A stretch of DNA of 24,092 nucleotides from a virus, in the IMG/VR virus record IMGVR_UViG_3300029893_000220, positions 1 through 24,092 of that record. The stretch is one strand, 5' to 3'. Within the stretch, counting starts at the first letter, position 1; each line of letters begins with the position of its first letter. The notes under the pieces are model-generated. The model saw only the letters and a program-made list of their open reading frames with translations. It made no database searches and was not told the origin of the DNA. This document shows positions 4,781 through 24,092 of this stretch, piece after piece. The translations under genes were made by a program, and so were the position numbers.

Positions 4781-5378
4781 ACGCTTTTAAAAAGGGGATT
4801 TTCCACTTCTTTTCAAAAATCTGTTTCCCCTCCTCAAATGACTTATTTCTAATGCCAGCCTTGGTGCTAGTTTGCTCTTCTAAGTGTCTAACCTTAACCG
4901 AAGTCACCTGCTCCATCTTCACTCCATCTTTGAGAGCCTGGTAAAAGCGATCTAAGTCTCCAAAATAGTTCTTGAAAACCAGATCGTCCCCCTTCCATAT
5001 TTTTTTAGGAAACATAAAGAAAGCCCCATCCCACTTCGGCTCCTGCTTGCCTTCAATCAATGGAAAAGAAAAGCCATCTCTCTTAAGACTCGATAAGCTA
5101 CCCTCAAGAAGCAATGTGTCATTATTGATAACACAAACATATTCTTTAGTAGCCACAGCTACACCGTCATTTACTGACTTGGTGAAGCCTAGGTTGGGAT
5201 TATGTCTGATATAAAAGTTAGCGGTATCTCTCAAGAATCCAGCACTCAACTTTGACCCATCATCCACGATGATTAGCTCACCATATTGATTGTATAACGA
5301 GTAAAGACAGTCTCGGGTTATTTGACCTAGCTGTTCGTCTAATAAATAGATTGGTATAACAAGGCTTATTTCTTCCAT
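4746..5378 (-). CDS. Family 2 glycosyltransferase
   Basis: A 210-residue GT-A protein. ISLVIPIYLLDEQ forms the first strand, ELIIVDDGS (about residues 34-42) is the classical nucleotide-binding motif of family 2 enzymes, NPNLGFTKSVNDGVAVA is the usual helix after it, and CVINNDTLLL (about residues 82-91) takes the D-x-D position as N-N-D. At 210 residues it is shorter than typical enzymes of 250-300, and the C-terminus (residues about 165-210) is Lys-rich. It overlaps both neighbours (13 and 35 bases). It probably transfers a sugar in the same pathway as the adjacent transferases. The acceptor is unknown: virion protein or host surface glycan are both possible. Confidence 0.75.
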   Translation of the reverse strand: MEEISLVIPIYLLDEQLGQITRDCLYSLYNQYGELIIVDDGSKLSAGFLRDTANFYIRHNPNLGFTKSVNDGVAVATKEYVCVINNDTLLLEGSLSSLKRDGFSFPLIEGKQEPKWDGAFFMFPKKIWKGDDLVFKNYFGDLDRFYQALKDGVKMEQVTSVKVRHLEEQTSTKAGIRNKSFEEGKQIFEKKWKIPFLKAYEDLSASVSVC

Positions 5379-5854
5379 ATAATCACTGCTCCATTTATAT
5401 GACCCTTAATGGGTTCTATTCGATATCCTCTATCCTTAACGAACTCATCTATGGCTTTCTTGGCTCCAAAAGGCTGTCCATAATCATCACAGACTATATA
5501 CTTCCTTGCGAGTCTATCTACGGCCTCCAAATCTCTCCTGCACCCTTCATAAGAGTGGTCTCCGTCAACATATACCCAGTCATACTTATCAGTAAGTGTG
5601 GATAAAACCTGGACACTATCCCCATATTTAATATCCCAACGATCAGGAAAATAGGCACGAAAAGCACCTTCCTTGCCTTTATTATCATCCAAATCTATAG
5701 AAAGCAATGTGCCGTTAGAGCCCATCAAGTAAGCCCACGCACTCATTCCCCAGCAAAAACCAATCTCTAATCCCGTTTTGGGCTTTAGCTTTGTGACTAA
5801 ATTAACCAACGGCTGAATGTATTGATCTGGGTTTAGTTCTTGCTCAAATTCCAT
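5366..5854 (-). CDS. SAM-dependent methyltransferase, class I
   Basis: A 162-residue Rossmann-fold enzyme. LEIGFCWGMSAWAYLM (about residues 30-45) is motif I with the G-x-x-x-G-like loop for S-adenosylmethionine. LLSIDLDD carries the acidic residue that binds the ribose. YDWVYVDGDHSYEGCRRDLE (about residues 90-109) is motif IV in the form typical of the Methyltransf_24 group, often linked to sugar or cephalosporin-hydroxylase-type methylation. YIVCDDYGQPFGAKKAIDEF follows. It lies among glycosyltransferases with overlaps of 13 and 22 bases, so O-methylation of a glycan is the natural inference. The substrate is not shown by the sequence. Confidence 0.75.
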   Translation of the reverse strand: MEFEQELNPDQYIQPLVNLVTKLKPKTGLEIGFCWGMSAWAYLMGSNGTLLSIDLDDNKGKEGAFRAYFPDRWDIKYGDSVQVLSTLTDKYDWVYVDGDHSYEGCRRDLEAVDRLARKYIVCDDYGQPFGAKKAIDEFVKDRGYRIEPIKGHINGAVIIWKK

Positions 5855-6567
5855 CCTAGGAGTTTCTTAATTTCTAATGGTAAAGGTGACTTGACAGCCT
5901 CCTCAAAAACATTCGGTACGGTTGGGTGAAAGTTTTTATCACCCTCTCTCCACTTGAGCCACACATCTTGATACCAATTTGGCACAAGCTCATGAGCATG
6001 ACCCCATGAAGATATCTTTTTGACCATCTCGGCGTCAGTCCTCACATATGAGAGATGGTGAAGTGTTGTGTCTGGGATGTAAAAGTTGTCATAGTAAACA
6101 TCTCTAACACTAGAAAATCTTTGGTGAGGGCGCATGGCTAGTACAGGAGGACCTTGGGTGGGTGTAACAATATGGTCAAGGTCTTTCCAATAAACAAGCA
6201 TTTCTGATGGTTTATAAATCTCTCTCTTAGGAGAATTACCAAGAAAAGAGAAAATCTTGTCAAGCGACTCTTTGGTGTAAAACTCATCGATGTCTACGAT
6301 CAAACACCAATCGAAACCCTTGTCCTTAAAGTAATCCAGTCCAAAGTGTCTTTGATCCTCATCCTTGCTCCAGTTACCCTCAATTACAGTAGCACCGTTA
6401 TTCTTGGCAATTTGTGCGGTATTGTCTACCTCTTCCATTGCGCTTCCTTGCCAAGGCATGAGTGAGACTAGAACAAGGTGCTCAACATCAAACCCGTCAA
6501 ACTGTCTTATACAAGCCTTGATAAACCGCTCCTCATTGTATGCACAAGTAACTACCCCTACTTTCAT
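5833..6567 (-). CDS. Glycosyltransferase, family 2 / GT92-like
   Basis: A 244-residue protein starting MKVGVVTCAYNEERFIKACI, a canonical GT-A first strand with the A-Y-N-E motif. FDWCLIVDIDEFYTKESLDK (about residues 90-109) supplies the D-x-D metal motif as D-I-D-E, the form common in Glyco_tranf_2_4/GT92-like proteins. DEDQRHFGLDYFKDKGFDW just before it matches the usual D-Q-R-x-x-G region of that group. The C-terminal half is rich in Trp, His and Tyr (TTLHHLSYVR, WYQDVWLKWREGDKNFHP). It overlaps the upstream methyltransferase in an ATGA (4 bases) and the downstream one by 22 bases. Confidence 0.75.
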   Translation of the reverse strand: MKVGVVTCAYNEERFIKACIRQFDGFDVEHLVLVSLMPWQGSAMEEVDNTAQIAKNNGATVIEGNWSKDEDQRHFGLDYFKDKGFDWCLIVDIDEFYTKESLDKIFSFLGNSPKREIYKPSEMLVYWKDLDHIVTPTQGPPVLAMRPHQRFSSVRDVYYDNFYIPDTTLHHLSYVRTDAEMVKKISSWGHAHELVPNWYQDVWLKWREGDKNFHPTVPNVFEEAVKSPLPLEIKKLLGWNLSKN

Positions 6568-7076
6568 TTAACAAATCCTCTAATAATAACCAGGCGCATT
6601 ATTTCGTCCTGAAAGTATTGGGTGTCAGGATACTTAAAATCCTCTCTAAACCACACAGATCGGTGGTTTTCAGAGGGGTGACCCCGCCATGAATATTGAA
6701 TAAAGTCAAAAGGATACTGAATCAGTATATGCTTAGTACGATACATTAGAAAATCTAACAAATCTAAACCGTCAGATTTTTTGAGGTGTTCAAGTACATC
6801 ACCCAAGATCACCAAATCCCACACCTCATCAGTATGTCTATCTATCCACTTCTCGATTGGCTCTACGTCAAGATCACTGTATTTATCTCTAAGCCCATAC
6901 TCACCAACATAGGAATCATCAACCTCAACACCTCTAAGATAGCACTCAACCCCCAGCTCCTTGAGCATATCTGCATACTTACCGGCACCACAGCCCACAT
7001 CTAGCACCCTTTGTGGATTAATAGAGGATATAAATTCCTTGATTTTATCGTCAAATCTATGGTCAGATACCGGCAT
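6564..7076 (-). CDS. SAM-dependent methyltransferase, class I
   Basis: A 170-residue enzyme. RVLDVGCGAGKYADMLKELG (about residues 23-42) is a textbook motif I (D-x-G-x-G-x-G) for S-adenosylmethionine, GVEVDD supplies the acidic ribose-binding position, and VWDLVILGDVLEHLKKSDGL (about residues 88-107) is the L-G-D-V-L-E-H motif of the Methyltransf_11/23 group. The C-terminus is Tyr/Phe-rich. It overlaps the large double glycosyltransferase by 14 bases and the next transferase by 4. Methylation of a sugar or glycosylated product in the same pathway is inferred from context; the acceptor is unknown. Confidence 0.8.
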   Translation of the reverse strand: MPVSDHRFDDKIKEFISSINPQRVLDVGCGAGKYADMLKELGVECYLRGVEVDDSYVGEYGLRDKYSDLDVEPIEKWIDRHTDEVWDLVILGDVLEHLKKSDGLDLLDFLMYRTKHILIQYPFDFIQYSWRGHPSENHRSVWFREDFKYPDTQYFQDEIMRLVIIRGFVK

Positions 7077-9393
7077 TGAAGTTTTTAACCCAAACCTTGG
7101 AAATCTCGTCCCAAGTTTCTTTTTTAGCTAATTGTTTAATCTCATCACTCAGTTTGGTCGTGTCTTTACCCAACAGCTCAACAACCTTTCTTGCCACTGC
7201 CTCCTGGGTCTCTCTGTCATAAGGATCACCCTTAACCTTCTGGCAATATGGTTTTTCCTTAAGAGCGGCATAATCAGTGGTAACCGGGATACACCCAGCC
7301 ATTGCTGCTTGCCTAACAGTTATGCAATCTATCTCCTCGAATGTTGTAGCGTAGTAAAGTATCTTTGCCTTCGATTTTGCCTTTATCAAATCTGACTGCC
7401 CAACCCGTCCCTTCTCTGTCACCCCAGGCTGACTCATCAGCTCAATCATTCTCTTCTTCCAAGCCATTCTCTCTGGATTGTCTGAGTAAAACGAGTCAAA
7501 CAGTTTCCATCCGTAGTAAATATCTAGTGTCGCTTGTGGAAACTTCTCCCTAATAATCGGCCAGCCATATTTAAGCATATACTCAAGGCCGCGGTCATAC
7601 GATGAAGCATAGATCAACTTAAATGGATCACGCTTAGATTTGCTCCATTTAAAGCTCCCCCTGTCTACACCGTTGGGCACTATTACAAACTTGTCTTGCT
7701 TTACATGAGGTAAGAAAGTCTGGTGGTACTTAGTTTTGATGAATATCTTATCTACTTTTTTGAGCCTGTCTGCAGTAAACTCCATCGGATTAGGTACATC
7801 ATGCAAGTCAAGGAAAACCTTGTTTGCCTTCCAGTCCATATCCAACATTGATGGATTTCTCCAGATGATTAAGTTATCGAATTGATCTTTCTGATTAAAT
7901 CGGTAGTAGTTTAGGTACTCGACACCGTCATACTCACCCTCATCTGCACCAGGATTTCCGTATACAGTCACCTTGTATCCAGCCTTAGTCCAAAGCTTGC
8001 TTAACTGGATTACAGCCGTTTCAGACCCCCCAATACCTTGAGATAGGTTCTTTGGTGTCCAACTCTCAAAACCAGCACCACAGAAGTACACAACGGACCC
8101 TTTAGGCCACTTCTTTGGTGGCAGATAAGTATTTCTTAACTTATCCACAATTACCGTGTTCTGTACCTCTTCTGGTAATGAAGCCAGTAAGTTAAGGATT
8201 TTATCCTCTCGCTTTTGCTCCCCAAGCACAGAAACCATATCGGATATGTTTCTCATCCACTCACCCCACCTAACAAGCTTAGCTGCTGACTCCATCTTGT
8301 CTTTATGCTCCTTCGTCGGCATGATCTCGAAAAGCTCAGAGGCCACCTTCAAGGCTCTCTTCATATCTCTCTTGTGGAAATAAACTAGAAAGAGGGTGTT
8401 TAGGGCATTGATCTTATCATCCCTAGGAGTTAGAACCGCTGCAGTTTGAGGCTGCTTAATACTTAATCCCAAATTAACGTAAAACTCAGCCTTCCTAAAA
8501 TCTTTCTTCATGGCGTAGGTACGAGCCAGGGCTATATACCACGATGGCCACTCTGGCCTTTCATGAATTGCTGACTCATAACAAGAAATGGCGTCATCGT
8601 AGTTTCCCTGCAAGTAAAAGATGCCTCCAAGGTAATGCCATGCCTGGGCTCTTTCCTCATCCCATCCAGAATGACTCAAGTAATCCTGAAAGAGTGTCGC
8701 CGCCCTCTCATAACCCTTTTGGGTGTGAGTATCAAACAAACATCGAGCAAGGTAGTACTCAGTCCTCGGGTCTGGTTCTTTTCTTAATCCTTTAGCCACT
8801 TCTTTTAGCTCTCCGGCATACTGCTTACTTAGAATCCTTATATTCCGCTCTATCCCAGATATTTTGTTCTCATTGGTAGGCCAGTGATTAACTGCAAAGT
8901 CTTTAATATATTGAGTATTTACCTCAACCTTAGGCACAAGCGTCTCGTGCAGTGCGGCTTTCCACTTGTATTTACCGTTCCTGACAATCCTCTCTCTTGG
9001 GTGAACGATAACAACCTCCTTGGTTCGTGGGTCAATCTCGTAGTTATAGTCCACAAAAACACCATCTAGATTCTGGTTGTCCATCTCCTTGACTACCTCT
9101 GGGATGATCCTGGCATTTTGCACCACATCATCACTGTCTAGCCACAAAACATACTTATACCCCTTGGTTTGTTCAAAGTTAAAGTTTCTAGCAGCGGAGA
9201 AATCATCAATCCAGTCAAAATGAGACAAAGTAATCTTCTTATCCTCTAAGTCTTTCCAATTGTCTTTTGTTTGCGTGGTGGTAATAAAAGCATGGTCTAC
9301 ATACGCCAAAATAGATTTAAGACACCTCTTGACCTCATCAACCTCATTACCCTTGATAATCATTGCCAGTGCTAGTTTCTTCATGTTGCTCAT
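7063..9393 (-). CDS. Fused GT2 - TPR - GT4-like double glycosyltransferase
   Basis: A 776-residue protein with three regions. Residues about 5-200 are a family 2 GT-A domain: LALAMIIKGNEVDEVKRCLK begins the fold, DWIDDFSAARNFNFE is the usual W-x-x-D-F-S-x-A-R-N motif, and YVLWLDSDDVV is the metal-binding D-S-D-D. Residues about 205-320 hold TPR-like helices (AWHYLGGIFYLQGNYDDAIS, ALARTYAMKKDFRKAEFYV). Residues about 430-776 resemble a GT-B enzyme: GSVVYFCGAG, GIGGSETAVIQLSKLW for the N-lobe loop, then VIVPNGVDRG, IYASSYDRGLEYML and a C-terminal E-x7-E-like region around TTFEEIDCITVRQAAMAG. It is the first gene of the cassette, after the 9401-9784 gene. Starts at 9393 or 9384 are both possible and neither has a strong Shine-Dalgarno. 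Two transferase activities in one chain suggest sequential sugar addition. Confidence 0.8.
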   Translation of the reverse strand: MSNMKKLALAMIIKGNEVDEVKRCLKSILAYVDHAFITTTQTKDNWKDLEDKKITLSHFDWIDDFSAARNFNFEQTKGYKYVLWLDSDDVVQNARIIPEVVKEMDNQNLDGVFVDYNYEIDPRTKEVVIVHPRERIVRNGKYKWKAALHETLVPKVEVNTQYIKDFAVNHWPTNENKISGIERNIRILSKQYAGELKEVAKGLRKEPDPRTEYYLARCLFDTHTQKGYERAATLFQDYLSHSGWDEERAQAWHYLGGIFYLQGNYDDAISCYESAIHERPEWPSWYIALARTYAMKKDFRKAEFYVNLGLSIKQPQTAAVLTPRDDKINALNTLFLVYFHKRDMKRALKVASELFEIMPTKEHKDKMESAAKLVRWGEWMRNISDMVSVLGEQKREDKILNLLASLPEEVQNTVIVDKLRNTYLPPKKWPKGSVVYFCGAGFESWTPKNLSQGIGGSETAVIQLSKLWTKAGYKVTVYGNPGADEGEYDGVEYLNYYRFNQKDQFDNLIIWRNPSMLDMDWKANKVFLDLHDVPNPMEFTADRLKKVDKIFIKTKYHQTFLPHVKQDKFVIVPNGVDRGSFKWSKSKRDPFKLIYASSYDRGLEYMLKYGWPIIREKFPQATLDIYYGWKLFDSFYSDNPERMAWKKRMIELMSQPGVTEKGRVGQSDLIKAKSKAKILYYATTFEEIDCITVRQAAMAGCIPVTTDYAALKEKPYCQKVKGDPYDRETQEAVARKVVELLGKDTTKLSDEIKQLAKKETWDEISKVWVKNFNAGI

Positions 9394-12190: not shown

Positions 12191-14138
12191 TGCTTACTTC
12201 TTCAAAATACTGATCGGCTTCCTTTATTTTAACAAGTTCACCCAGCTTGCCCAATATATCCTTGTGTTTAAGTTGGTATCCATCCCTCCTAAGAGATCCA
12301 TCTTTCTCGGACTCTTTTGCTTCCTTGTACCATCCAAGTCTTCTGGCGTACTCACTGTCATTGTCTGGCATACCCAAAGCCTCAATGTCGGGGATAAAGT
12401 TATACTCACCAAGGTAGTCTTGTTCAGGATCAACGTACAAATAACCTTGATTTCCATCTGGTGTTAACTCCATCTTTGGCTTAACTCCATCAGCGGTAAC
12501 TACTTCGGCAACTGGAATAGCATATTGATCTAGTTCGCCGTTTTCAGTAAGGGCGTCATAGGCTAGTTCAAAAATATCTTCATCTCGTCTTGCTGCACCA
12601 GCAAAACCAGGATCTTTAAGAAGCTCTTGTGCATATTCGTAGACTAACTCATATCCCTCATCGGTAATGTTCCAATCAGTAAGACCAGCCTTATCAAAGT
12701 ACTCCAAGGCGTCCTTACCAACTATCTTGATAACAGTCTCTTTATCAGTAAACTTAGGATCTCTTAACATTTCAAAAATCAGATACATCAGTTTCTTAAG
12801 AGCCGCTGAAAGCATGATCTTGTTAAAGTTATCTCTAGCCCCTCTTAAGAAAGCCCTGTCCCTAACCTCTGTGGCGGTCTTGTCAGCACCTAGCAAGTCA
12901 ACTGAGGAAACACCCTGTCCAGTTTCTCCAAGTGCCTCAAGGAACTCAGTAACCAACATCTTGTAGGTCTCTGAAAAGCTTGATAGCGATTGAGAAGTCT
13001 TCTGATCTAAGACAGTAACATTAGTGGGGTTATTCACCAACCAAAATGCCTTTGGCCTAAACTTAAAAGTATCCATCCTGGTCTCATTGGCGTTAACCAA
13101 TGTTGGAGGGTACAAGTCTTTATTAACCAATTCAATGAATTGAGACTGCAGAGCTGAAAGTATCTTGAGTAGTGCTCGGACCGGCTGAAGCTCGCTCATT
13201 CCATAGACATCCTCCTGGGACGGGATATATACCAAAGGAACCACTGGGATCTCTCCGTGCACATAAGGATTTTCGATTGTTCTCAGGACCAAGGCTTCTT
13301 TCTTACTGCTTGTGCCCTGCTTGGGACACCACGTTACCCACTTGTCTTTGTAGAGAGTAATACAAACCTCAAACCTATCATCATCACCGTCCAAGTTTTT
13401 CTTATCCCGCATAGTAGAGAGATAATTTTGCTGTCGGCCTGTGCCAGTCTTCATTTCCCTAAGCTCTCTCATTGCTGACTCGTCGTAAGAGGCTCCATCA
13501 AGTTGAACTCTCTCGAGCTCATCTAAAGACGCATATCTTCTGACAATGACATAGTCCGAACCCTTGATCGTCTCTCTTCCTGGCTGTAGTAACACATCTC
13601 GGTTGTTAAGAAGATCTAACCACCAGTTGTTATATACAATCCGAGCCTCCTTCTTTTTGGTTTTAGGATTGTATACCTTCTTAGTCTCAACTTTCCACCT
13701 GGGCATAACAAAACCAGCCCCATAAAGTCGAGTATTTAGATCCCATTGAGCAACGATTGCCTCAATAGGAACATCTGAGTGTTGATTAAATCTGTCTATA
13801 CTCCACTTAAAATGCTCGGTAGCTATCTTTGCTCCCATCTCATCACCTTTCTCCACACCCTCAATCCTTCCGGTGAATCTCCCGCCCACCATCCTGACTG
13901 TTTTGTGAAAAATACCAGTGAATCCTCGTGGGGTTGCTAATTTTACAGAGTAAGGCCATTTATTTGGGTCAATGTAGGCATTAAACAGCTTGTCATAAGT
14001 GTCAAAGCCATATGTATTGTTTTGAATTCTATTATCCAGCTCGCTATTCGCCTCGTCATACTCTTTAACAAGCTTAGTTGCATCTACTGAAATCTGTCTT
14101 TTCTCCGCCTTAGGTTGTTTTTTTTCTTTTTTAGCCAT
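12060..14138 (-). CDS. Phage portal protein, large podoviral type
   Basis: With the ATG at 14138 the protein has 692 residues; the frame extends to a TTG at 14150, but MAKKEKKQPKAEKRQ is the natural start. Portals form the dodecameric ring at the packaging vertex. Supporting features are the large size, position directly after terminase, and portal-like phrases such as NPTNVTVLDQ, a long central helical region (FSETYKMLVTEFLEALGETG, about residues 400-420) followed by GVSSVDLLGADKTATEVRDR, where portals have a conserved A-T-E helix before the crown, and a disordered Pro/Gly/Gln-rich C-terminus (residues about 650-692). The 3' end overlaps the 95-residue gene. The ATG lies 10 bases beyond the T-tract of the hairpin at 14149-14178, without a Shine-Dalgarno. 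Confidence 0.75.
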   Translation of the reverse strand: MAKKEKKQPKAEKRQISVDATKLVKEYDEANSELDNRIQNNTYGFDTYDKLFNAYIDPNKWPYSVKLATPRGFTGIFHKTVRMVGGRFTGRIEGVEKGDEMGAKIATEHFKWSIDRFNQHSDVPIEAIVAQWDLNTRLYGAGFVMPRWKVETKKVYNPKTKKKEARIVYNNWWLDLLNNRDVLLQPGRETIKGSDYVIVRRYASLDELERVQLDGASYDESAMRELREMKTGTGRQQNYLSTMRDKKNLDGDDDRFEVCITLYKDKWVTWCPKQGTSSKKEALVLRTIENPYVHGEIPVVPLVYIPSQEDVYGMSELQPVRALLKILSALQSQFIELVNKDLYPPTLVNANETRMDTFKFRPKAFWLVNNPTNVTVLDQKTSQSLSSFSETYKMLVTEFLEALGETGQGVSSVDLLGADKTATEVRDRAFLRGARDNFNKIMLSAALKKLMYLIFEMLRDPKFTDKETVIKIVGKDALEYFDKAGLTDWNITDEGYELVYEYAQELLKDPGFAGAARRDEDIFELAYDALTENGELDQYAIPVAEVVTADGVKPKMELTPDGNQGYLYVDPEQDYLGEYNFIPDIEALGMPDNDSEYARRLGWYKEAKESEKDGSLRRDGYQLKHKDILGKLGELVKIKEADQYFEEVSNEAIQTGEGSQGAGSVSPGLPQGGSVPEVPQVPPQPNAGQPLP

Positions 14139-14148
14139 ATTTATACAC

Positions 14149-14178
14149 AAAAAAGACCCCCCGAAAAATTGGGAGGTC
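14149..14178 (-). terminator. Terminator-like hairpin before the portal gene
   Basis: Read leftward, GACCTCCC (14178-14171) pairs with GGGGGGTC (14162-14155) over eight pairs including one G-U, with an 8-base loop, followed by six Ts and GTG. It ends just before the portal start, mirroring the arrangement at 3324-3350. Confidence 0.6.
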
Positions 14179-14216
14179 TTCAGTTGCTCTGATAAACCGT
14201 AATTTAGCTTATTTTA

Positions 14217-14486
14217 TCACACAATCTTGCTAGTCTGCTCCTGTTGAACAACCTCGATCCTTCTATTCTGAATAATCAAGGCAACCTTACCCCATCCAGT
14301 GTTACGTTTGACGTTAGCAATTAGTGACAGTGCTTGGCTGATTGCTTGCCTTATTTCTTCTCCATCATCCTGGTATTCATCTAAAATTTGCTTTATTTGA
14401 AGTAAAACAGGATCAGAGAGAGCTAGAATTTGATTAAGCTTCTCGTTGTTTTCTTTGCGAATCTTCTCGTCGTCTATAAAAGTCAT
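14217..14486 (-). CDS. Small helical protein between terminase and portal
   Basis: An 89-residue protein starting MTFIDDEKIRKENNEKLNQI, acidic at the N-terminus and predicted mainly helical with heptad-like hydrophobic spacing (residues about 15-60: LNQILALSDPVLLQIKQILD). It follows the terminase nuclease stop by one base, so it is probably translationally coupled. The downstream hairpin at 14149-14178 makes it the last gene of the packaging segment. No family is recognised; a packaging or head accessory role is inferred from position only. Confidence 0.6.
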   Translation of the reverse strand: MTFIDDEKIRKENNEKLNQILALSDPVLLQIKQILDEYQDDGEEIRQAISQALSLIANVKRNTGWGKVALIIQNRRIEVVQQEQTSKIV

Positions 14487-14487
14487 C

Positions 14488-16128
14488 TTACATACCCAGA
14501 TCAGAATCTACCTCCTCCTGAAATTGGGGTAATTGATAATTAGATATCTGTACTACAGGGCTTTCAACTTGGTATAACTGCCAAGCGATAGCCAGTGCCA
14601 TACAGTTATGAACCAAGATATTGTTGGCAAAATACTCTGGAGTTTCTGCAACTTGGAGGTTATAAACTCTTTGCTTTCCGGCGATAACGCGACCCACAAA
14701 GTTGTGAACAAAACTTAGCACCCAAAGTACGGGTGTAAATAAACTTTTTACCACATTCCGCACAAATGGCTTCTTTCCTTTCTCCATGAATACTAAGACG
14801 AGCTGCTCGTCGAGCTTGTTCTTTCCACTTTTCTGGGTTGGCGGCTCTCCATTTTGCAAGCGTCTCTTTAATTCTTTTAGCGTTTTTGAGTCCGTTTCTA
14901 CGAAGAAGAGCTTGGTATTCGTCTGGGTTTTCTTCTTTCCACTTTTTGAGGGCTTGAATAGCTCTACTAGCTTGTCGTTTGCCATTTTCGCTATACACCC
15001 GGCTTGCTTCTTTGGGGTTGTTTTTCCGCCACTCTCGTAACTGTCTAACCAGTCGCTTGGCTTGCCGATGACCGTTAGACACAATGAGTTTATGCCTATC
15101 TGGTTCAAGAAGGTGTTTGGTGATGTGCTTACCCTTTTCCTCAAGTGCAAGATTGTCTGGTGAGTTATTAAGAGGATTACCATCTTTATGGTGAACAACA
15201 TATCCCTTAGGGATTGAGCCAAAATTGTCAATCCAAATTTGCCTGTGGAGTGCAAATGGAGGTTTTTTCCACTTATCGTGTCGCCAATAATAGACCCTAA
15301 GCTGTCTTCTCTTTGAATTTGGGTAGCGGTGATACTTTTTTCCTCGATACTCGATTGTTTCTCGTTCCACATGTATATTATATCACTGGCCTTAACTGTA
15401 GCAAGAGAGACAGTGCCTTTTTTCGTTATAATTGGATGGTCGGGAGTTCCCGTAAGTCCTAGGTTCGTAACTACCTTGGCATACCTAGAGTTGGTGGCAA
15501 TTACTGGTCTATAACCATTTCGGGTCATTACCAAATCTCCAACTCTAATGTTTTCTATTGGCACTTGGCCATTATTTGTTAGTATTTTTGTTCCTGCCAC
15601 GAAACATAAATCATCATGGGCTCCTTCCTCGGCTTGGGGTTTTCCAGATCTGCTGATAATGAAGGTGAACAACTCTTTTACTGTTGGTTTATGGTAGAGC
15701 TTGATTAGCTGTTTATCTATAGCCTCCTTTAAATCTTGAAGCATTTTAGGCCTAGTGGCCGTGTTAGTATCCCACCCAATCTTACTGCTCTCTGGGTTAT
15801 TTATAGCTCCGTAGCTTGGCATGGTAAAAATCTTGTATTTCCCGTTTCTGTTCAGCGTTGCAAGACGCTCTAACTCAAACACCCCGCCGTTTTGTCTTTC
15901 ATAAGCCACCACCGGCTGAATTCCTGTCTCATCAAATATTCTTTCAAGCTCAATGTGAATGGTTGGGGTAACTGAGGTAATGCTTTGCTTAACGTAGATT
16001 ACACCAGGAACATCAAGATTGGTTTTGGAAAGGAATTGTGCTGCAGTAAAGTCATTCGCCCCCGCTGATGGGTCAACTCCAACTGTGATAAATTCTCCCC
16101 GGTTGTATTTTCTATATTGTTGCAACAT
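14488..16128 (-). CDS. terL: Large terminase nuclease subunit with intein
   Basis: A 546-residue precursor. Residues 1-174 and 509-546 form an RNase H-like terminase nuclease domain: GVDPSAGAND (first acidic Asp19), VVAYERQNGG (Glu77) and AHDDL (Asp172/173) are the three metal-binding motifs. Residues 175-508 are an intein. Splicing would join GAHDDL to CMALAIAWQLY and restore the helix that carries the HDD motif. The ATG at 16128 overlaps the ATPase gene by 17 bases in the +1 frame; an in-frame TAG at 16143-16141 prevents upstream extension, so the two halves are separate ORFs unless ribosomes shift within 16140-16115. In most phages both domains are one polypeptide. This nuclease cuts concatemeric DNA at packaging start and end. 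Confidence 0.85.
   Translation of the reverse strand: MLQQYRKYNRGEFITVGVDPSAGANDFTAAQFLSKTNLDVPGVIYVKQSITSVTPTIHIELERIFDETGIQPVVAYERQNGGVFELERLATLNRNGKYKIFTMPSYGAINNPESSKIGWDTNTATRPKMLQDLKEAIDKQLIKLYHKPTVKELFTFIISRSGKPQAEEGAHDDLCFVAGTKILTNNGQVPIENIRVGDLVMTRNGYRPVIATNSRYAKVVTNLGLTGTPDHPIITKKGTVSLATVKASDIIYMWNEKQSSIEEKSITATQIQREDSLGSIIGDTISGKNLHLHSTGKFGLTILAQSLRDMLFTIKMVILLITHQTILHLRKRVSTSPNTFLNQIGINSLCLTVIGKPSDWLDSYESGGKTTPKKQAGCIAKMANDKLVELFKPSKSGKKKTQTNTKLFFVETDSKTLKELKRRLQNGEPPTQKSGKNKLDEQLVLVFMEKGKKPFVRNVVKSLFTPVLWVLSFVHNFVGRVIAGKQRVYNLQVAETPEYFANNILVHNCMALAIAWQLYQVESPVVQISNYQLPQFQEEVDSDLGM
14660..15370 (-). CDS. HNH homing endonuclease nested out of frame in an intein
   Basis: A 236-residue protein with a GTG start at 15370, in the frame offset by two bases from the intein that contains it. 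FGSIPKGYVVHHKDGNPLNN (residues 50-69) followed by SPDNLALEEKGKHITKH is a canonical HNH_3-type nuclease core: His60/His61, Asn69, Asn73 and His82/His86. Three W-x(4-5)-NP helical repeats follow (residues about 110-190: WRKNNPKEA, WKEENPDEY, WRAANPEKW), probably DNA-recognition modules. The C-terminus has C-x2-C-x14-C-x3-C (ICAEC...FCSQLC), a zinc finger. It would cut intein-less terminase genes and so drive intein spread. A promoter-like TTGCTA-N16-TATAAT lies directly upstream. No Shine-Dalgarno is seen. Confidence 0.85.
   Translation of the reverse strand: MERETIEYRGKKYHRYPNSKRRQLRVYYWRHDKWKKPPFALHRQIWIDNFGSIPKGYVVHHKDGNPLNNSPDNLALEEKGKHITKHLLEPDRHKLIVSNGHRQAKRLVRQLREWRKNNPKEASRVYSENGKRQASRAIQALKKWKEENPDEYQALLRRNGLKNAKRIKETLAKWRAANPEKWKEQARRAARLSIHGERKEAICAECGKKFIYTRTLGAKFCSQLCGSRYRRKAKSL
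15377..15403 (-). promoter_or_regulatory. Promoter-like sequence inside the intein, before the HNH ORF
   Basis: On the minus strand TGATATAAT (15385-15377) is a perfect extended -10, and TTGCTA lies 16 bases upstream (about 15403-15398) as a partial -35. Transcription would begin near the GTG start of the HNH gene, giving an almost leaderless message. Confidence 0.45.
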
Positions 16129-18055
16129 CCTTAACTTGCTCTAAATATGCCTTGAGAGCTTCTTTGTCAAAATAGTTATCACCCGACGCTATAAACGCCT
16201 CTTCTGGTGTCTCTGGATATTCTTGTGGGTAGAGTCTCCCGAGCTCCTTTCTCTTTTGCTCTAAGAAATCTTGTGAATAAAACAACGATGCTGAAAAAAA
16301 CAAAGGGTTAAATCCCGTTAATCCAAGCTCGGACTCATCCCAAAACTCCTTCAACTCATTAAAACCATTTGCTGTGGTCTCTATTACCACTCTTCCATCC
16401 GGCCTAACAGCTTGTAGAGCTGAGGCTAAAAGCTTCCTAAAGTGTTTGTAAAAAGCCGCCTCCGAGTTTGAGATCACCCCACAAGGAGTAAGAAATGCGT
16501 GGGACTTGTCCTTGACCTCTATCTCATAGGTCTGTTGGGGGGGGGCGTCTTCTATTGACTTAACCTTAATAAACAAGCCCCCATTACATGAAGACATATT
16601 CCTAGTAGTTAAATAGCGATACTTCATCCCCTTAAAACTTTTTGCCCCATTTTTCTTTTTCTGAGAAAAACCATGCACCCTTAATCTATAGATCGGTTGG
16701 GTTTTGTTCTCGTATCTTTTCCTGTTTTCCACATAGTCAAGAGCGGGAATCCTGTGATTTAACAGGCAATAGATTTGCCTCATCTGCCTTCCTATGCTTT
16801 CCCTGATAGTGGTTATAAACACCATCTCTTGCCTCCCATTTTTTACATAATCCAACTTTGAGCCGTCTCCATCCTTCCAACCATCAAATAATCCCAAAAG
16901 AAACTTCTTTGGATACTGATACAAAAACTTATCAGGAATATATTTGTTTTCAGCCCTACCAACCAGATCATTAACAAACATTGCTATTTCCCTAGAAAAG
17001 TACGTGATTATTTTTCTGGTCCCACTGTTATCTGATCTGATATCCACCCTAGGGCTTATTGGAAACAAGTCAATAAAGTTCTCATAAAAGTATTCATCAG
17101 GATGACAAGCAAAAGAAATCTTATTTAAGTCTTTTGTGATGTTTCCCTCGGCCAGGTAATAGCCTAAAAAATAACCCAGCTTATAATTCGTCTTCAAAAC
17201 TAAACCAGAGCTTCTTACATTACCTATTTTTCCATTTGGAGCTCTCTTTCTTACGAGATGTTTTGCGTTTTTCTGGTTCCTTACTACCAGATGTTTTACA
17301 TAAGCCCCCGTCTTTGGATATGCCCACATAACATAATCATCGGTAGTTAAATCCTTGGCCTTTTTCCATACTGGATCCGATAGGCGACTGTTATGCCCAG
17401 CACCAGCAACCCGAATCTTATGATCTGGAGAAACATCGATAGTTTCATTTGATAACCACAGTCTGATTCTTTTTATTGGTTTGATGCCAGTGTTCCATTT
17501 ATTAGTAACCTCAGTGAGGCCACCATCTTCAGCGATCACCCTGTCTCCTATTTCTATATCCTTTATCTTCTTTGTGATCCCGTTTTTACTAATTATTTTA
17601 GTGTCTCCGCCTACACACATGTGCAAATTTTTGATAGTCTTTGACCTTCCAAACTCCGTATTTTCAGCTGTACCTATCTGATATTTACTGTTTATTACTT
17701 CATTAACGAGCTCGTATTTAGAGTTGTACTTAAGTGGAATCTTCATTCCTGTTTTTTGCTCATACGACTGAAGGTAAAACTTAACCTTATCAAGCAATCC
17801 TATGGCGTTATCTGCGACGTCTGCGACAACTACTGAGTGAGAGTTAGGGTCAAGAATAAAATCTCCAGCAAAAATACCACCAATAAATGATGAAAAACCC
17901 TCTTGTCTAGCCTTAAGTAAGATATCTCTACCAGTTGCTTTGTTAGCAAATAACCGTTGCGGACCGTTTGGCACAAACTGAACTATCTGACCTTGTTTAT
18001 CTATAATCTCAAGACGTTGCTCGATAAATTTCTCGTAAGGCTTATAGACACTCAT
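16112..18055 (-). CDS. terL: Large terminase ATPase subunit with intein
   Basis: A 647-residue precursor. Residues 1-146 and 531-647 form the terminase ATPase. LLKARQEGFSS (about residues 46-56) is the variant Walker A of this family. Splicing joins IKNLHM to SEAAFYKHF, restoring the L-H-x-S-E Walker B with its catalytic Glu. VVIETTANGFNELKEFW is the following motif III region, and PETPEEAFIASGDNYFD is the usual end of the ATPase domain. Residues 147-530 are an intein with a LAGLIDADG endonuclease. The start overlaps the small terminase stop in an ATGA (18052-18055). The 3' end overlaps the nuclease ORF by 17 bases. This motor pumps DNA into the prohead through the portal. Confidence 0.9.
   Translation of the reverse strand: MSVYKPYEKFIEQRLEIIDKQGQIVQFVPNGPQRLFANKATGRDILLKARQEGFSSFIGGIFAGDFILDPNSHSVVVADVADNAIGLLDKVKFYLQSYEQKTGMKIPLKYNSKYELVNEVINSKYQIGTAENTEFGRSKTIKNLHMCVGGDTKIISKNGITKKIKDIEIGDRVIAEDGGLTEVTNKWNTGIKPIKRIRLWLSNETIDVSPDHKIRVAGAGHNSRLSDPVWKKAKDLTTDDYVMWAYPKTGAYVKHLVVRNQKNAKHLVRKRAPNGKIGNVRSSGLVLKTNYKLGYFLGYYLAEGNITKDLNKISFACHPDEYFYENFIDLFPISPRVDIRSDNSGTRKIITYFSREIAMFVNDLVGRAENKYIPDKFLYQYPKKFLLGLFDGWKDGDGSKLDYVKNGRQEMVFITTIRESIGRQMRQIYCLLNHRIPALDYVENRKRYENKTQPIYRLRVHGFSQKKKNGAKSFKGMKYRYLTTRNMSSCNGGLFIKVKSIEDAPPQQTYEIEVKDKSHAFLTPCGVISNSEAAFYKHFRKLLASALQAVRPDGRVVIETTANGFNELKEFWDESELGLTGFNPLFFSASLFYSQDFLEQKRKELGRLYPQEYPETPEEAFIASGDNYFDKEALKAYLEQVKDVATI
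16466..17617 (-). mobile_element. Intein with LAGLIDADG endonuclease in the terminase ATPase
   Basis: Residues 147-530 of the ATPase precursor (384 residues). Block A begins CVGGDTKIISKNG. Block B is DVSPDHKIRVAG. Two LAGLIDADG helices lie at residues about 293-304 (LGYFLGYYLAEG) and 385-398 (FLLGLFDGWKDGDG), each ending in an acidic residue as required for a single-chain homing endonuclease. The C-terminal block is SHAFLTPCGVISN followed by Ser531. The penultimate residue is Ser, not the usual His. The insertion splits the Walker B motif just before its S-E pair. Confidence 0.92.
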
Positions 18056-18468
18056 ATCCCGAAGGCGTCTTTCTCACTCTTTAGGTGGTTTAAGACATTT
18101 ACTTGAATGTTATTTGTCGTTTTCTCTTCTACATCTCCAGCTGCCTTCCTCATATCTTTCCAGTAGTTATAATCACGGACAGCATTTTTCATGCCAATTT
18201 TGTCTAAAGTTGGAAGCCAACGCCTACGAGCCTTCCTATACGCCTCGTAATACCAGTCCTCAAATCCAGGTTTCTCCAGCCACTTATACCAAGCTTGCTT
18301 CGTCATTTTACTTGCTGCAGCAATCTCCGTAGGTGAGTCAGAGTGTATTTCTACTGCTACAGCGAGCCATTTTTCCATTCCAGGAGTAGGATTAAACTCC
18401 TCCGTTTCGGTCAACTCTTTTGACTTTTGTATTGCCGTATCAGTCTTTTTTATCATAGGGTCTAACAT
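18052..18468 (-). CDS. terS: Small terminase subunit
   Basis: A 138-residue protein. Residues about 40-75 (SPTEIAAASKMTKQAWYKWL) form a helix-turn-helix typical of small terminase N-domains, which recognise phage DNA. They are followed by the W-L-E-K-P-G-F-E-D-W region and a long basic helix (YEAYRKARRRWLPTLDKIGM). The C-terminal segment (residues about 105-138) would assemble the oligomer and contact the ATPase. It overlaps the ATPase start by 4 bases (ATGA), the classic terS-terL coupling. Upstream lie two 9-bp direct repeats and an extended -10, so this is a likely entry point for late transcription. Confidence 0.75.
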   Translation of the reverse strand: MLDPMIKKTDTAIQKSKELTETEEFNPTPGMEKWLAVAVEIHSDSPTEIAAASKMTKQAWYKWLEKPGFEDWYYEAYRKARRRWLPTLDKIGMKNAVRDYNYWKDMRKAAGDVEEKTTNNIQVNVLNHLKSEKDAFGI

Positions 18469-18475
18469 GTTTGTC

Positions 18476-18495
18476 GCGGTAATTTTGCGGTAATT
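18476..18495. repeat. Two 9-bp direct repeats upstream of terS
   Basis: GCGGTAATT occurs at 18476-18484 and 18487-18495, spaced 11 bases start to start, which places both on one face of the helix. They lie 8-27 bases upstream of the terS start and downstream of the extended -10 at 18525-18533. A binding site for a regulator, or for TerS itself (packaging site), is possible. Confidence 0.5.
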
Positions 18496-18524
18496 CTAAA
18501 ACAATCAAGTACAAGTCAGATTTC

Positions 18525-18533
18525 ATTGTATCA
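18525..18533 (-). promoter_or_regulatory. Extended -10 candidate for the late operon
   Basis: TGATACAAT on the minus strand (18533-18525) matches TG-n-TATAAT with one mismatch. No clear -35 is present. It lies about 57 bases upstream of the terS start, in the only intergenic gap of the packaging region. Confidence 0.35.
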
Positions 18534-18572
18534 CACCAACCGTCGCACCGCCTCGAGAAAGGTTATTTTGTC

Positions 18573-19100
18573 TCATGGCTTCCATTGTGTTAAATTACAA
18601 GCTTGCTTCCATAAATCATTTGATTGATATTCTGCTGGATTAAAAGGATGCTCACCACTAAGTAAGCCCCTATGATCATGATTAAAATAAACGTCCATTT
18701 CTCCAGTATCATATTTTTCACCAATATACGCTTCCTCCCAATAATCATGTCTAACATCCCCAATAACATAACCGTCATATTTTAACCCCGTACCCAACAA
18801 TAAAACCGGTCTCGTTGGCGTAAATGTCTCGTCCTCGTCTAAGTGGGGATAATTTCTATCAATCTCCTCTTTAGTTCTTTCTGCCAGCCCCTCATTGAAA
18901 CTCAAAATTGGTTTAACTTCCACAAGTATCACTTTATTATTCATCCCGTACAACGCAAAGTCAGGTATCCAACCATCAAAATCCAAAGGTTCATACTCCC
19001 ACTTCCAACCAACTAGGTCAAAGAAAGCAGCCCACCTCGCTTCTAATCTGGAGCGAAATCTAACATTTTTATAAATTGTCGGTATCGGCGCTATCCCCAT
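18573..19100 (-). CDS. PD-(D/E)XK-like nuclease, unknown role
   Basis: A 175-residue protein. NVRFRSRLEARWAAFFDLVG (residues about 12-31) carries the helix with Glu of such folds, GWIPDFALYG supplies the catalytic Asp, and KVILVEVKP supplies the E-x-K. Together they form a complete P-D-x(n)-E-x-K site near the N-terminus. The C-terminal half has many His, Asp and Trp residues (DVRHDYWEEAY, DVYFNHDHRGLLSGEHPF) and no known domain. Similar small proteins occur in many phage genomes beside replication genes, usually unassigned. Start at ATG 19100 with AAAGGA upstream. It lies between the iteron-like region and terS, so it could process replicating DNA or degrade host DNA. Confidence 0.65.
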   Translation of the reverse strand: MGIAPIPTIYKNVRFRSRLEARWAAFFDLVGWKWEYEPLDFDGWIPDFALYGMNNKVILVEVKPILSFNEGLAERTKEEIDRNYPHLDEDETFTPTRPVLLLGTGLKYDGYVIGDVRHDYWEEAYIGEKYDTGEMDVYFNHDHRGLLSGEHPFNPAEYQSNDLWKQACNLTQWKP

Positions 19101-19102
19101 AT

Positions 19103-19354
19103 TTATTTTTTCCTTTCAAGAAAAAAAGTATTATCTATCAAAGTCCTATAATCTTCACCTTTGCAAAACGCCATTCTTCCTTTGCAATGCAACCCCCCTT
19201 TAGGGGGGTATTGCAAACGAGAATTTAGGCACGTTTGCAAACGAGAATTAACACTACCACTGCAAACGATGGATGTATCAATCCTTTCTCTTTTGCAATG
19301 GTATTGCAAAGGTATTGCAAACGAGAAAATCAACTTGTCAAAAAAGTATCTCAT
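19103..19354 (-). CDS. Doubtful 83-residue ORF across the iteron-like repeats
   Basis: An ORF whose ATG overlaps the helicase stop (ATGA, 19351-19354) and whose stop is 2 bases before the nuclease start, which is the tiling of a real operon gene. The predicted protein is unusual, though: Cys/Arg/Ser-rich with no domain, and its middle (VNSRLQTCLNSRLQ) is simply the translation of the TTGCAAACGAGAA repeats. It may be coding DNA in which an origin is embedded, or an accidental open frame. I favour the origin as the selected function. Confidence 0.3.
   Translation of the reverse strand: MRYFFDKLIFSFAIPLQYHCKRERIDTSIVCSGSVNSRLQTCLNSRLQYPPKGGLHCKGRMAFCKGEDYRTLIDNTFFLERKK
19161..19330. repeat. Iteron-like array, candidate replication origin
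   Basis: TTGCAA occurs seven times (19161, 19182, 19211, 19235, 19293, 19304, 19315) in 170 bases. The longer unit TTGCAAACGAGAA occurs exactly at 19211, 19235 and 19315, and partially as CTGCAAACGA at 19260. Spacings of 24-25 and of 11 and 11 bases keep copies on one helix face. A perfect hairpin ACCCCCC-TTTA-GGGGGGT lies at 19192-19209. The array sits directly beside the primase/helicase gene, as phage origins often do. Confidence 0.6.
19192..19209. repeat. GC hairpin inside the iteron-like array
   Basis: ACCCCCC (19192-19198) and GGGGGGT (19203-19209) are a perfect 7-bp inverted repeat with loop TTTA. It could act as a single-strand initiation or primase-loading structure, or as a weak transcription barrier between the helicase and nuclease genes. 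Confidence 0.6.
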
Positions 19355-20946
19355 AGTTCTTGATCATCCTCCTCCATAACTGGTCTAAAATACACCCTTT
19401 TCCGATGGTTGTTCTCATCTTGTCTATAATCGACATCCTGACTTTTGACTAAAGTCCCCAGTACCGTATCAGCAGTTCTCTTAGATATATCTTTACTCTC
19501 ACACGCCTTATAAAGATCATCCTTGGTAAATTCGTAATTTTTATCCAACAGCTCAGTTATCACTTGCCTGGCCTCAGCGTTCTTGGCTTCAATATCTATC
19601 ACCTCTCCCCCATAAGCAACTTCTGATATGTAAGTCCCCTTCCCATTAGGATTGACCTGAGATACTAAGTTGACTTTAAATTTTGATAGTTTTTGAGAGT
19701 CCCTAGCCTTGGTCTGCTCAAAAGAAAATTCATTGATTGTGTTAGGCATAGCTGCCACCCTGAAACCTGATACTATTTGAGCATTGATGTTGGTACTCCC
19801 TCTGGCTCTTTGTGCTGAACTTCTTACTGTCATTGATGGCTTGTTCTCATGGTGTAGTACCAAAAACGCCCTACCTGGAAACAACCGCCTTAATGTGTCA
19901 AAAAATACTTGGGTATCCCCAGCAGCATTCTCATTCCCAATCATTACGTCAGTGAAAGAGTCAATTACAATCAAACCAATGTTCAGCGCTTCAACCTTCC
20001 TCGATAGAGATTTGGCAAACTTTGATATGCCATCATCTTCCTTTGGATCAGTTAAATCAAAATAATGGGGGTACTTGACCCGATAAATCATCCCGTCCTT
20101 ATCCTCAATACCCATACCCTTAAACCGATCTTGAGAGATTTTCCTTGAGTTCTCCTTGTCAATAAAAAGCATTTTGGTTTTTGTGTTGATCGCAAATCTA
20201 CCCAACCACGGGCTATTCTCGACAATGGCTTTGGCTATAGAAAGCGTATATAACGACTTACCAGTACCCTCAGCACCAAAAATAAAAGTAAACCCTTCTG
20301 CTGGCAATACCCTCTCAATTATCCATTTTTCCTCGGGTATATCCTCTGCTAGTAATTCTGATATTTCTTCTAGTTGAAACTCATCAGGCTCATGCTTGTC
20401 CAGCCATTGATCTAAAGAAAGCAACTCGACCATCAAATCCTCCACCTTGTAGTCTTTCTCAAAATACTCGCACACATCCTTAACTCCTTCAGGTAGCTCA
20501 ATGATCGCCGGTTTAGCTCCAACATTCTCTAGTGTCTTGTAGTGCTTCTCAATTGCCTTCTTTCCAGCGTCATCGTTGTCCAGGCAAATATATACGTCCT
20601 TGCCCCTTAACGGCTCTAAAATATCCTCACTCACCGACTCAACTCCGTTGGTTGATGTTACTGCTGGTATGCCCTCTTGCCACAATCTCACGCAATCTGG
20701 CTCACCTTCACAGTAAACCACCCATTCCTTGTCTTTAGTCACGTGGCTGGCATAAAGCATCTTCTTAGCTCCAGGGTCAAAGCTAAATTTTGTGTCACCA
20801 GTCAGGTGGCGATAGTGATTGAACATCACCTCTCCATCCCCATTCTTGATCGGTATGGTTATCTTGTCATCATCCCACGACCAGCCAAACTTCTTGGCAA
20901 ACTCCGGATCTATTGTGTGGCTATCAAAATACTCTTGGGCAGTCAT
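19351..20946 (-). CDS. Replicative TOPRIM primase / RepA-like helicase
   Basis: A 531-residue protein. Residues about 75-150 are a TOPRIM domain: WVVYCEGEPDCVRLWQEG supplies the catalytic Glu, and DVYICLDNDDAGKKAIEKH the D-x-D. Residues about 205-450 are a RecA-like ATPase of the RepA/AAA_25 type: FTFIFGAEGTGKSLYTLSIA is Walker A, LNIGLIVIDSFTDVMI is Walker B, and AFLVLHHENKP is the sensor region. The C-terminus (residues about 460-531) looks like a winged helix (TKDDLYKACESKDISKRTAD). The zinc-binding domain of primase is missing here and is supplied by the upstream ORF, which overlaps by 4 bases (20943-20946). The protein would prime and unwind DNA at the phage fork. Confidence 0.85.
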   Translation of the reverse strand: MTAQEYFDSHTIDPEFAKKFGWSWDDDKITIPIKNGDGEVMFNHYRHLTGDTKFSFDPGAKKMLYASHVTKDKEWVVYCEGEPDCVRLWQEGIPAVTSTNGVESVSEDILEPLRGKDVYICLDNDDAGKKAIEKHYKTLENVGAKPAIIELPEGVKDVCEYFEKDYKVEDLMVELLSLDQWLDKHEPDEFQLEEISELLAEDIPEEKWIIERVLPAEGFTFIFGAEGTGKSLYTLSIAKAIVENSPWLGRFAINTKTKMLFIDKENSRKISQDRFKGMGIEDKDGMIYRVKYPHYFDLTDPKEDDGISKFAKSLSRKVEALNIGLIVIDSFTDVMIGNENAAGDTQVFFDTLRRLFPGRAFLVLHHENKPSMTVRSSAQRARGSTNINAQIVSGFRVAAMPNTINEFSFEQTKARDSQKLSKFKVNLVSQVNPNGKGTYISEVAYGGEVIDIEAKNAEARQVITELLDKNYEFTKDDLYKACESKDISKRTADTVLGTLVKSQDVDYRQDENNHRKRVYFRPVMEEDDQEL

Positions 20947-23518: not shown

Positions 23519-24092
23519 ATGAAACTAACTAAAAAACAGGCGTTGGAGAAAATCGAGGAGCTTAAAAAATATATAGCCGAGAAGGACAAGGAAGAGCCTA
23601 AGGGTTATGTGATTAAGAATAGATACAACAACTCTGAAATCTTTGTCTCAACCAAGAACAATGTCAGAGACGCTGTTATTGAGGCGGTAGAACAGGCAGC
23701 CAACCTTAAGGAAGCCAACCTTGAGGGAGCCAACCTTAGGGGAGCCGACCTTGAGGGAGCCGACCTTGGGGGAGCCAACCTTAGGGGAGCCAACCTTAGG
23801 GAAGCCGACCTTAGGGGAGCCAACCTTGTGGGAGCCAACCTTAAGGAAGCCGACCTTGTGGAAGCCGACCTTAGGGAAGCCAACCTTGTGGGAGCCAACC
23901 TTGTGGGAGCCAACCTTAAGGAAGCCGACCTTGTGGAAGCCGACCTTAAGGAAGCCGACCTTGTGGGAGCCAACCTTAGGGGAGCCAACCTTAGGGGAGC
24001 CGAACTTTTTAACGCCAAATTTTACGGTAAGGGTGGAGCCTCTAAACTGAAAAGAAATCAGGTAGAGACTTTCTTAAAGGCACTGGGGTTCA
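23519..24092 (+). CDS. Pentapeptide-repeat protein, partial at right edge
   Basis: From ATG 23519 a frame of 191 codons is still open at the window end. Residues 1-60 are a charged helical head ([20 protein letters not shown]). Then come about 21 tandem pentapeptides of the form A-(N/D)-L-x-x (residues about 61-165), which fold as a right-handed quadrilateral beta helix. A different C-terminal segment follows ([20 protein letters not shown]). Such proteins can mimic DNA (Qnr/MfpA type, gyrase binding), but the acidic face needed is only suggested by the many D-L units. At DNA level the 15-base units are nearly identical. ORFs on the other strand and in other frames here are products of the repeat. 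Confidence 0.85.
23700..24010 (+). repeat. Tandem 15-bp repeat array in the pentapeptide gene
   Basis: About 21 units of the pattern (A/G)ACCTTnnGGnAGCC encode pentapeptides. Silent positions are almost invariant (CTT, GCC). A 53-base block at 23821-23873 is repeated exactly at 23896-23948, five units (75 bases) later, showing recent internal duplication. Confidence 0.9.

Follow-up and report, generated by a model that had tools for sequence, protein, structure and literature searches.

A phage intein with an HNH endonuclease gene nested out of frame in one half of a split terminase, and the dual-coding intein family to which it belongs

Intein homing endonucleases are expected to be encoded in frame, and fractured genes with split inteins, in work attributed to Dassa in 2009, reportedly have a free-standing endonuclease gene between the intein halves. 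Several published systems come close to the one described here. The ShiLan domain is an out-of-frame HNH found in phage methylases without a splicing domain, for which the authors suggest leaderless translation and whose insert is expected to stay in the methylase (PMC11855218); there is a further case of this type (PMC12613952). The dCTP deaminase intein of cyanophage CL131 holds its HNH in frame and was spliced in E. coli (PMC6293099). Among phage terminase large subunits (TerL), the inteins of mycobacteriophages have been reported in the ATPase domain only, Walker B included (PMC5050341), an intein is present in TerL of phage TaPaz (PMC8228797), and the terminase of Campylobacter phage IBB_35 contains an intein together with an HNH-bearing intron (PMC3322345). 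In the present study we analysed IMG/VR virus record IMGVR_UViG_3300029893_000220, a stretch of 24,092 bases (the ‘window’), in which an HNH gene lies out of frame inside an intein. The best explanation, which we consider likely, is a composite mobile element, i.e. an intein whose homing endonuclease is encoded by an overlapping out-of-frame gene, placed in the nuclease half of a two-chain terminase.

The window resembles the ShiLan-type cases in having an out-of-frame HNH in an open insertion, a GTG start, a TAA at the end and a disjunct distribution, and the relative frame, read from the stated start position, is also the same. However, the ShiLan-type insert has no splicing domain, whereas the window HNH is enclosed by a complete intein, and, unlike in that account, stop avoidance and an embedded promoter were measured for the window family. 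With canonical bifunctional inteins such as that of CL131 the window element shares a HINT splicing domain and a homing-type endonuclease in one element, but its endonuclease lies outside the precursor polypeptide, in a separate overlapping gene. Fractured genes compare with one of our retrieved loci (numbered L002 onwards), L311, in which an HNH of the window's family stands between intein halves; the window intein, in contrast, is one open reading frame (ORF) and would splice in cis. TerL is a favoured host in common with the mycobacteriophage inteins, although the HNH-bearing intein of the window sits in the nuclease domain instead, and IBB_35 likewise has two inserted elements in one terminase gene, but these are an intein and an intron, and no nested out-of-frame gene is described. 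On sequence comparison, the nuclease intein with its nested HNH is a member of a large class of dual-coding inteins; in the literature searched (titles and starts of abstracts) we found no account of an intein that encloses an out-of-frame endonuclease gene, or of anything similar beyond the ShiLan-type cases, although an earlier account may exist.

The insert in the terminase nuclease gene has the features of a class 1-type intein, for which splicing may be predicted. The class 1 splicing residues are present (C1, the block-B TPDH and HN/C, the slash marking the junction), and Pfam returned Hint_2 above its cut-off (5.2e-10) and Intein_splicing below it (2.6e-4). In the AlphaFold model of the intein frame, residues 1–90 and 311–334 have a predicted local distance difference test (pLDDT) score of 92–98, whereas the linker scores 35–80 (predicted template modelling score, pTM, 0.44), and a Foldseek search with this model gave the gp41-1 intein as the best match (E 5e-6), along with other inteins, consistent with a HINT fold. 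The window intein halves were not found on separate ORFs, both lying on the nuclease ORF, and no endonuclease domain was found in frame in this intein, HNH occurring in another frame only and the linker being of low confidence. The HNH ORF lies entirely within the intein, in a different frame, over a stretch where the intein frame codes mainly for the linker. It contains the HNH motif, with zinc-finger cysteines seen by eye, and its AlphaFold model has a mean pLDDT of 93 and a pTM of 0.52; the linker is thus predicted to be disordered and both the splicing domain and the HNH protein are predicted to be folded. The motif and the top PDB fold match, a weak one (E 0.08), liken the protein to the I-HmuI-type HNH homing endonucleases, I-HmuI itself being intron-encoded.

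Relatives of the HNH protein were first sought with the protein alone, ignoring context, and 41 loci were found, 32 of them with the N-terminal HNH part; L036–L044, which match the C-terminal coiled part of the query only and have no HNH match, were dropped. In 29 of these 32 loci no stop interrupts the intein-equivalent frame anywhere in the match, and in 27 of the 29 (not L020 and L024) this frame extends into a host ORF that carries intein blocks, the relative frame being the same each time. The host genes of 20 loci were translated and by eye are terminases with the intein mostly after an HDD-type motif, the exceptions being L035, a fragment too short to assign, and L034 (3156–5261), in which the nested HNH intein lies in a DegT-like aminotransferase, also assigned by eye. 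An alignment of 24 nested HNH proteins (A1) was then used to search GTDB genomes, which gave 67 loci, and IMG/VR, from which the best 80 of 242 were taken. After classification with hidden Markov models (HMMs) and removal of duplicates there were 113 distinct nested HNH ORFs and 58 others; identical HNH ORFs, ORFs of less than 80 codons and ORFs containing N were dropped before stops were counted. Cys1 is found in 111 of the 113 nested loci, as is some histidine in the block-B stretch, and a terminal asparagine followed by cysteine, serine or threonine in all 113, such ends being favoured by the HMMs used. Public phage records with the nested arrangement are those of Tetrasphaera phage TJE1, Acinetobacter phage Highwayman, Rhodobacteraceae phage LS06-2018-MD07 and the fecal phage MT838676; in the first three the HNH lies within an ORF annotated solely as terminase large subunit, and the record of MT838676 is unannotated. 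Free-standing relatives of the same HNH adjoin terminase genes in BP10, PAE1, FBPa53, SN1 and EauM-23.

The expected number of stops was obtained by shuffling synonymous codons inside each HNH gene. No stop occurs in the intein frame of the 113 nested genes, compared with 305 expected, and 8.9 genes were expected to be stop-free. Little avoidance was seen in the third frame of the same genes (2153 stops compared with 2254 expected) and none in the intein-equivalent frame of the 58 other HNH genes (821 compared with 780 expected), a set that is not wholly unnested, as L066, L187, L189 and L197 were later found to be nested and L092 is nested in the other frame. As the first count is circular, ‘nested’ having been defined by a shared ORF, we recounted the loci requiring only an IntN block 60–700 nucleotides (nt) upstream in any frame. 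Of the resulting 119 distinct HNH loci, 116 share one relative frame, the exceptions being L024 and L092 (other frame) and L198 (same frame as the HNH), and the intein frame is stop-free in 115 of the 116, the exception being L068. A search starting from the intein (A4 alignment; best 80 of 133, 12 duplicates dropped) gave 68 distinct loci, of which 51 have a nested HNH, none has an in-frame HNH and one is broken. The remainder comprise 14 without an HNH, including three mini-inteins of 129–135 amino acids (aa), and two cut by contig ends; the mini-inteins suggest that the splicing domain would need no linker. Across the loci compared, an out-of-frame HNH in a continuous intein ORF is a conserved architecture, shared by more than a hundred viral and bacterial genome sequences besides the window.

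Within the nested genes, the linker has an identity of 0.29 in the intein frame where the HNH has 0.50, and in the other HNH genes the same shadow frame has 0.27 compared with 0.52 for the HNH. Since the linker identity is like that of the shadow frame in the other HNH genes, the linker shows no amino acid constraint and, stops aside, is tolerated and not selected, with which the AlphaFold scores agree. A linker acting as a functional domain was also considered and rejected, its amino acid identity being about that of the other HNH genes in the same frame.

The HNH start is itself written into intein codons. In the window's subfamily it consists of the last base of an isoleucine, valine, threonine or methionine codon plus the tryptophan codon of a conserved intein motif, and 26 of the 28 loci with this motif use that start, with L006 and L007 beginning further on. 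The base before the tryptophan codon is A in 24 of the 28 and G in four, all of the latter being methionine codons; in the non-methionine cases it is therefore A in 24 of 24, though ATA, GTA and ACA account for no more than 42, 32 and 41% respectively of the codons in their families. At the other end, the HNH stop lies not more than 75 nt from the intein end in 111 of 113 loci, and by eye it often falls within the VYN or VYD stretch of the C block. Many loci have TTGACA-like and TGnTATAAT-like hexamers upstream, with the −10 stopping 6 nt short of the start codon, which is the spacing of a leaderless transcript. When scored with E. coli weights against a null that redraws synonymous intein codons, the promoter reached p<0.05 at 38 of 106 starts (seven nested loci without a usual start codon being left out) compared with 1.9% of 214 control sites. 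A −10-like hexamer at the exact spacing was found at 43 of the 106 starts (the window and 42 others) and a Shine–Dalgarno sequence at 27, the two never occurring together (Fisher p 4e-8). The hexamer at 6 nt suggests that the HNH mRNA may be leaderless.

It could be argued that the HNH is dead or never expressed and that selection acts on the open intein frame alone, in keeping with the 36 of 106 starts that have neither signal. However, the differences in 587 nested pairs are enriched at the third position of the HNH codons (0.30, 0.26 and 0.44 at positions 1, 2 and 3 respectively; 0.30, 0.24 and 0.46 in 30 pairs of other HNH genes), the H and N columns of the motif are invariant in an alignment spanning identities down to 28%, and the start codon and upstream signals are kept beyond the amino acid needs of the intein, so that we consider this improbable. 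We judge it very unlikely that the HNH is made within the intein, either through frameshifts near 15370 and 14660 or in an in-frame bifunctional intein hidden by two indels. This form does exist, as the in-frame HNH of CL131 demonstrates, but the frame relation common to 116 of the 119 loci and the 68 intein-first loci (from the best 80 of 133) without an in-frame HNH argue against it, as do the boundaries of the HNH genes. These genes begin and end at codons of their own, and in 88 of 113 a stop closes the HNH frame no more than 12 codons ahead of the start.

By homology, the window encodes a terminase large subunit of the T4 gp17-like type on two ORFs, one for the ATPase and one for the nuclease. 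These ORFs were named on the strength of two relatives: L002, an intein-free, single-chain TerL that matches T4 gp17 (E 8.8e-8 over 42–454), and L201, both halves of which match PHROG terminase models, its ATPase half as terminase large subunit (6.9e-12). Both window halves align to L002, so that gp17-like homology extends across ATPase and nuclease, although the window protein is split and not a single chain; no Pfam terminase model matched L002, L201 or L204. A probable small terminase subunit is encoded nearby, along with a portal-like gene and an SU10-type capsid gene; a search for the window capsid protein in three relatives gave no match and is uninformative.

The initial annotation had described the split, with its 17-base overlap in different frames, and had offered two assembling chains or a ribosomal +1 shift as its explanation, with a one-base indel merging the ORFs as the result that would overturn it. 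The alignment of homologues that it proposed has now been made with the window and 16 loci (L002–L005 and L201–L212), i.e. 15 distinct relatives, as L207 is the contig of L005; the look-alike contigs L201 and L202 are each counted among the 15. TerL is split at the same point in the window and in 14 of the 15, L002 alone being a single chain, and on this comparison the split is a shared trait of the terminase lineage. The junctions differ, with +1 overlaps of 8–17 nt (the window, L003, L004, L201/L202, L208 and L211), ATGA-type overlaps in the other frame (L203, L204 and L210) and gaps of approx. 90–560 nt (L005, L205, L206, L209 and L212). In L005 a NinG-like gene (PF05766; 2795–3238) is inserted between the ATPase and nuclease halves. 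Because the junctions vary between overlaps, gaps and an inserted gene, we exclude a fixed frameshift or a sequencing indel and favour two translationally coupled chains, so that of the earlier proposals it is the assembly of two separate chains that the terminase would follow. Programmed +1 frameshifting that fuses both ORFs could draw on the +1-frame overlap of the window and five further loci (L201/L202 counted once), but the other-frame overlaps and the gaps, one of them holding a gene, leave it with very little probability. That the insert is an intron with an HNH ORF, removed at the RNA level, is scarcely credible: HNH genes are frequent in phage introns, but no Rfam intron was matched in window positions 14000–18600 up to E 1, and splicing blocks and a HINT fold are present in frame.

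The composite element is accompanied by a second intein, in the ATPase half, which is of a known sort and lies at what we take, by eye, to be Walker B. Two LAGLIDADG-like motifs were likewise seen by eye, and both of its Pfam matches are below cut-off (Hint, 8.7e-4; LAGLIDADG_3, 0.0015). L201 and L202, whose ATPase is 83% identical with that of the window, have empty sites without inserts, LHM/SEAAF and HDDL/VMSLA, where the window has the junctions LHM/SEAAF and HDDL/CMALA. The earlier placement of two inteins at active-site motifs, with endonucleases of different types (LAGLIDADG-like in frame in the ATPase intein and HNH out of frame in the nuclease intein), is upheld, and the out-of-frame HNH, only a detail there, is the important part, being a widespread dual-coding architecture. 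The suggestion that splicing might time packaging found no support, as L201 lacks both inteins and such a terminase thus exists without them. The +1 residue in the ATPase is a native serine; at the nuclease site the +1 residue is valine or isoleucine in eight of eight cleanly aligned empty loci, so the cysteine of the window probably arrived with the intein. We also observed a two-chain terminase with three inteins in L004 (854–4895); two of them lie in its nuclease chain, and the third, of 161 aa, occupies the same Walker B site as in the window.

Mobility was assessed in 99 loci with long exteins; another 14, including the window, were left out for their short exteins. There were 114 pairs with at least 50% identity in the HNH and at least 45% in the intein core, and 60 of these had no TerL extein match by blastp at E 1e-3; HNH similarity correlated with intein similarity (Mantel r 0.44, p 0.001). 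These comparisons indicate that the whole element has probably been transferred together from one host gene to another, dissimilar one, but it is also inherited along with the host gene. A tree of the HNH core, rough because of its few columns, comprises 153 members (117 nested, 30 free, five fractured or broken and one in the other frame) and would fit repeated nesting and repeated escape alike.

Out-of-frame nesting seems to have arisen more than once, since other cases use another frame or another nuclease. In L092 (3308–4108) the intein ORF is again continuous but the HNH occupies its other frame, and the intein frame is stop-free over 169 codons, with 8.2 stops expected. A helicase intein (IIDE/C...HN/C) carries a DUF559 nuclease in L276 (3000–3831; PF04480 above cut-off) and in eight further loci (L303–L310), L302 being the contig of L276 itself; the six distinct DUF559 loci examined are nested in the other frame, with no stop in the intein frame compared with 7.7–9.9 expected. 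Broken forms were also seen. In L311 (2289–3386; Vibrio phage 1.238.A) TerL is fractured, and TerL with IntN, the HNH, and IntC with the TerL end are separate ORFs; L076 resembles it, and in L068 the intein frame is broken and no C block was found.

Table 1. Features of the terminase region of the window (a slash marks a splice junction)
Feature	Position	Strand	Size and evidence
TerL ATPase ORF with in-frame intein	18055-16112	-	647 aa
ATPase-domain intein, LHM/C...SN/SEAAF, at Walker B, LAGLIDADG-like	17617-16466	-	384 aa, Cys147-Asn530; junctions; motif names by eye
Overlap of ATPase stop and nuclease ATG (two-chain split)	16128-16112	-	17 nt; ORF coordinates; nuclease in +1 frame of ATPase
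TerL nuclease ORF with intein	16128-14488	-	546 aa; PHROG terminase match 4.7e-8
Nuclease-domain intein, HDDL/C...HN/CMALA	15606-14605	-	334 aa, Cys175-Asn508; junctions; HINT parts pLDDT 92-98
IntN part of splicing domain, single-coding	15606-15373	-	predicted fold
Putative embedded extended sigma70-like promoter, TTGCTA-N16-TATAAT, TG before -10	15404-15377	-	6 nt before HNH GTG; family support
HNH endonuclease gene nested out of frame in intein, GTG-TAA	15370-14660	-	236 aa; Pfam HNH_3 4e-14
IntC block (VYNL...HN); first codons also hold HNH stop	14667-14605	-	block match, predicted fold
Probable terminase small subunit	18052-18468	-	PHROG terminase small subunit E 0.0016

Elsewhere in the window, iteron-like repeats with TTGCAAA cores (19157–19327) adjoin a gene at 19351–20946 and are possibly an origin or a regulator site, and a run of glycosyltransferase- and methyltransferase-like genes, assigned by eye, lies amid structural genes (3375–9393). 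The repeats of a pentapeptide-repeat-like gene (23519–24091) leave another frame and the other strand open; such open overlapping frames can be compositional.

Taken as a whole, the composite element would work as follows. Reading in the terminase frame would yield a class 1-type splicing domain interrupted by a floppy linker of approx. 220 residues, which would be a mere frame-shadow of the HNH gene, the intein frame being constrained there solely to lack stops, and the intein would excise itself and join its exteins in cis. Reading in the HNH frame, which has its own start codon where IntN ends and a stop codon where IntC begins, would yield a free HNH endonuclease, expressed independently from a leaderless promoter embedded in IntN codons or from a Shine–Dalgarno start. 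The enzyme would then cut intein-free terminase genes at the conserved HDD region, and repair would copy the whole element in.

Several points weigh against this explanation. Splicing, promoter use, translation, cleavage and homing are all deduced from sequence. For the window alone, the stop-free intein frame (P 0.054 on synonymous shuffling) and the promoter (p 0.067) are marginal, and in a general scan the window site is the best of its region, yet promoter-like sites numbered six compared with 7.9 in shuffles. The loci are related, so that their counts are not independent, the promoter was scored with E. coli values whatever the host of the locus, and a third of the starts, as given above, carry neither signal. 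The HNH protein has no significant PDB match, either by sequence or by Foldseek (none below 0.001). In addition, HNH similarity follows extein similarity (r 0.41) nearly as strongly as intein similarity, and the nested label has to change 19 times on the tree, with well supported branches forcing at least ten of these changes, which makes the linkage unstable.

We nevertheless hold the composite element to be the best account of the locus, and we lean, with less assurance, towards the wider proposal that selfish DNA of phages makes general use of dual coding in inteins. On this view the endonuclease has moved into a second frame, with its own promoter in synonymous codons of the splicing domain; the strategy had several origins, with different nucleases and frames, and is a source of free-standing HNH genes and fractured trans-splicing inteins. 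The architecture is also a plausible intermediate on the way from canonical inteins to the fractured, split kind. Surveys confined to the frame of the host gene would score such inteins as endonuclease-free and miss the enzyme. As there are many natural replicates, with mini-inteins and free-standing relatives as controls, the origin of an overlapping gene is directly testable here. The architecture also suggests how expression of an intein endonuclease could be made independent of the late structural gene that carries the intein and, if the proposal is true, cutting would be uncoupled from expression of the host gene while splicing remains in cis.

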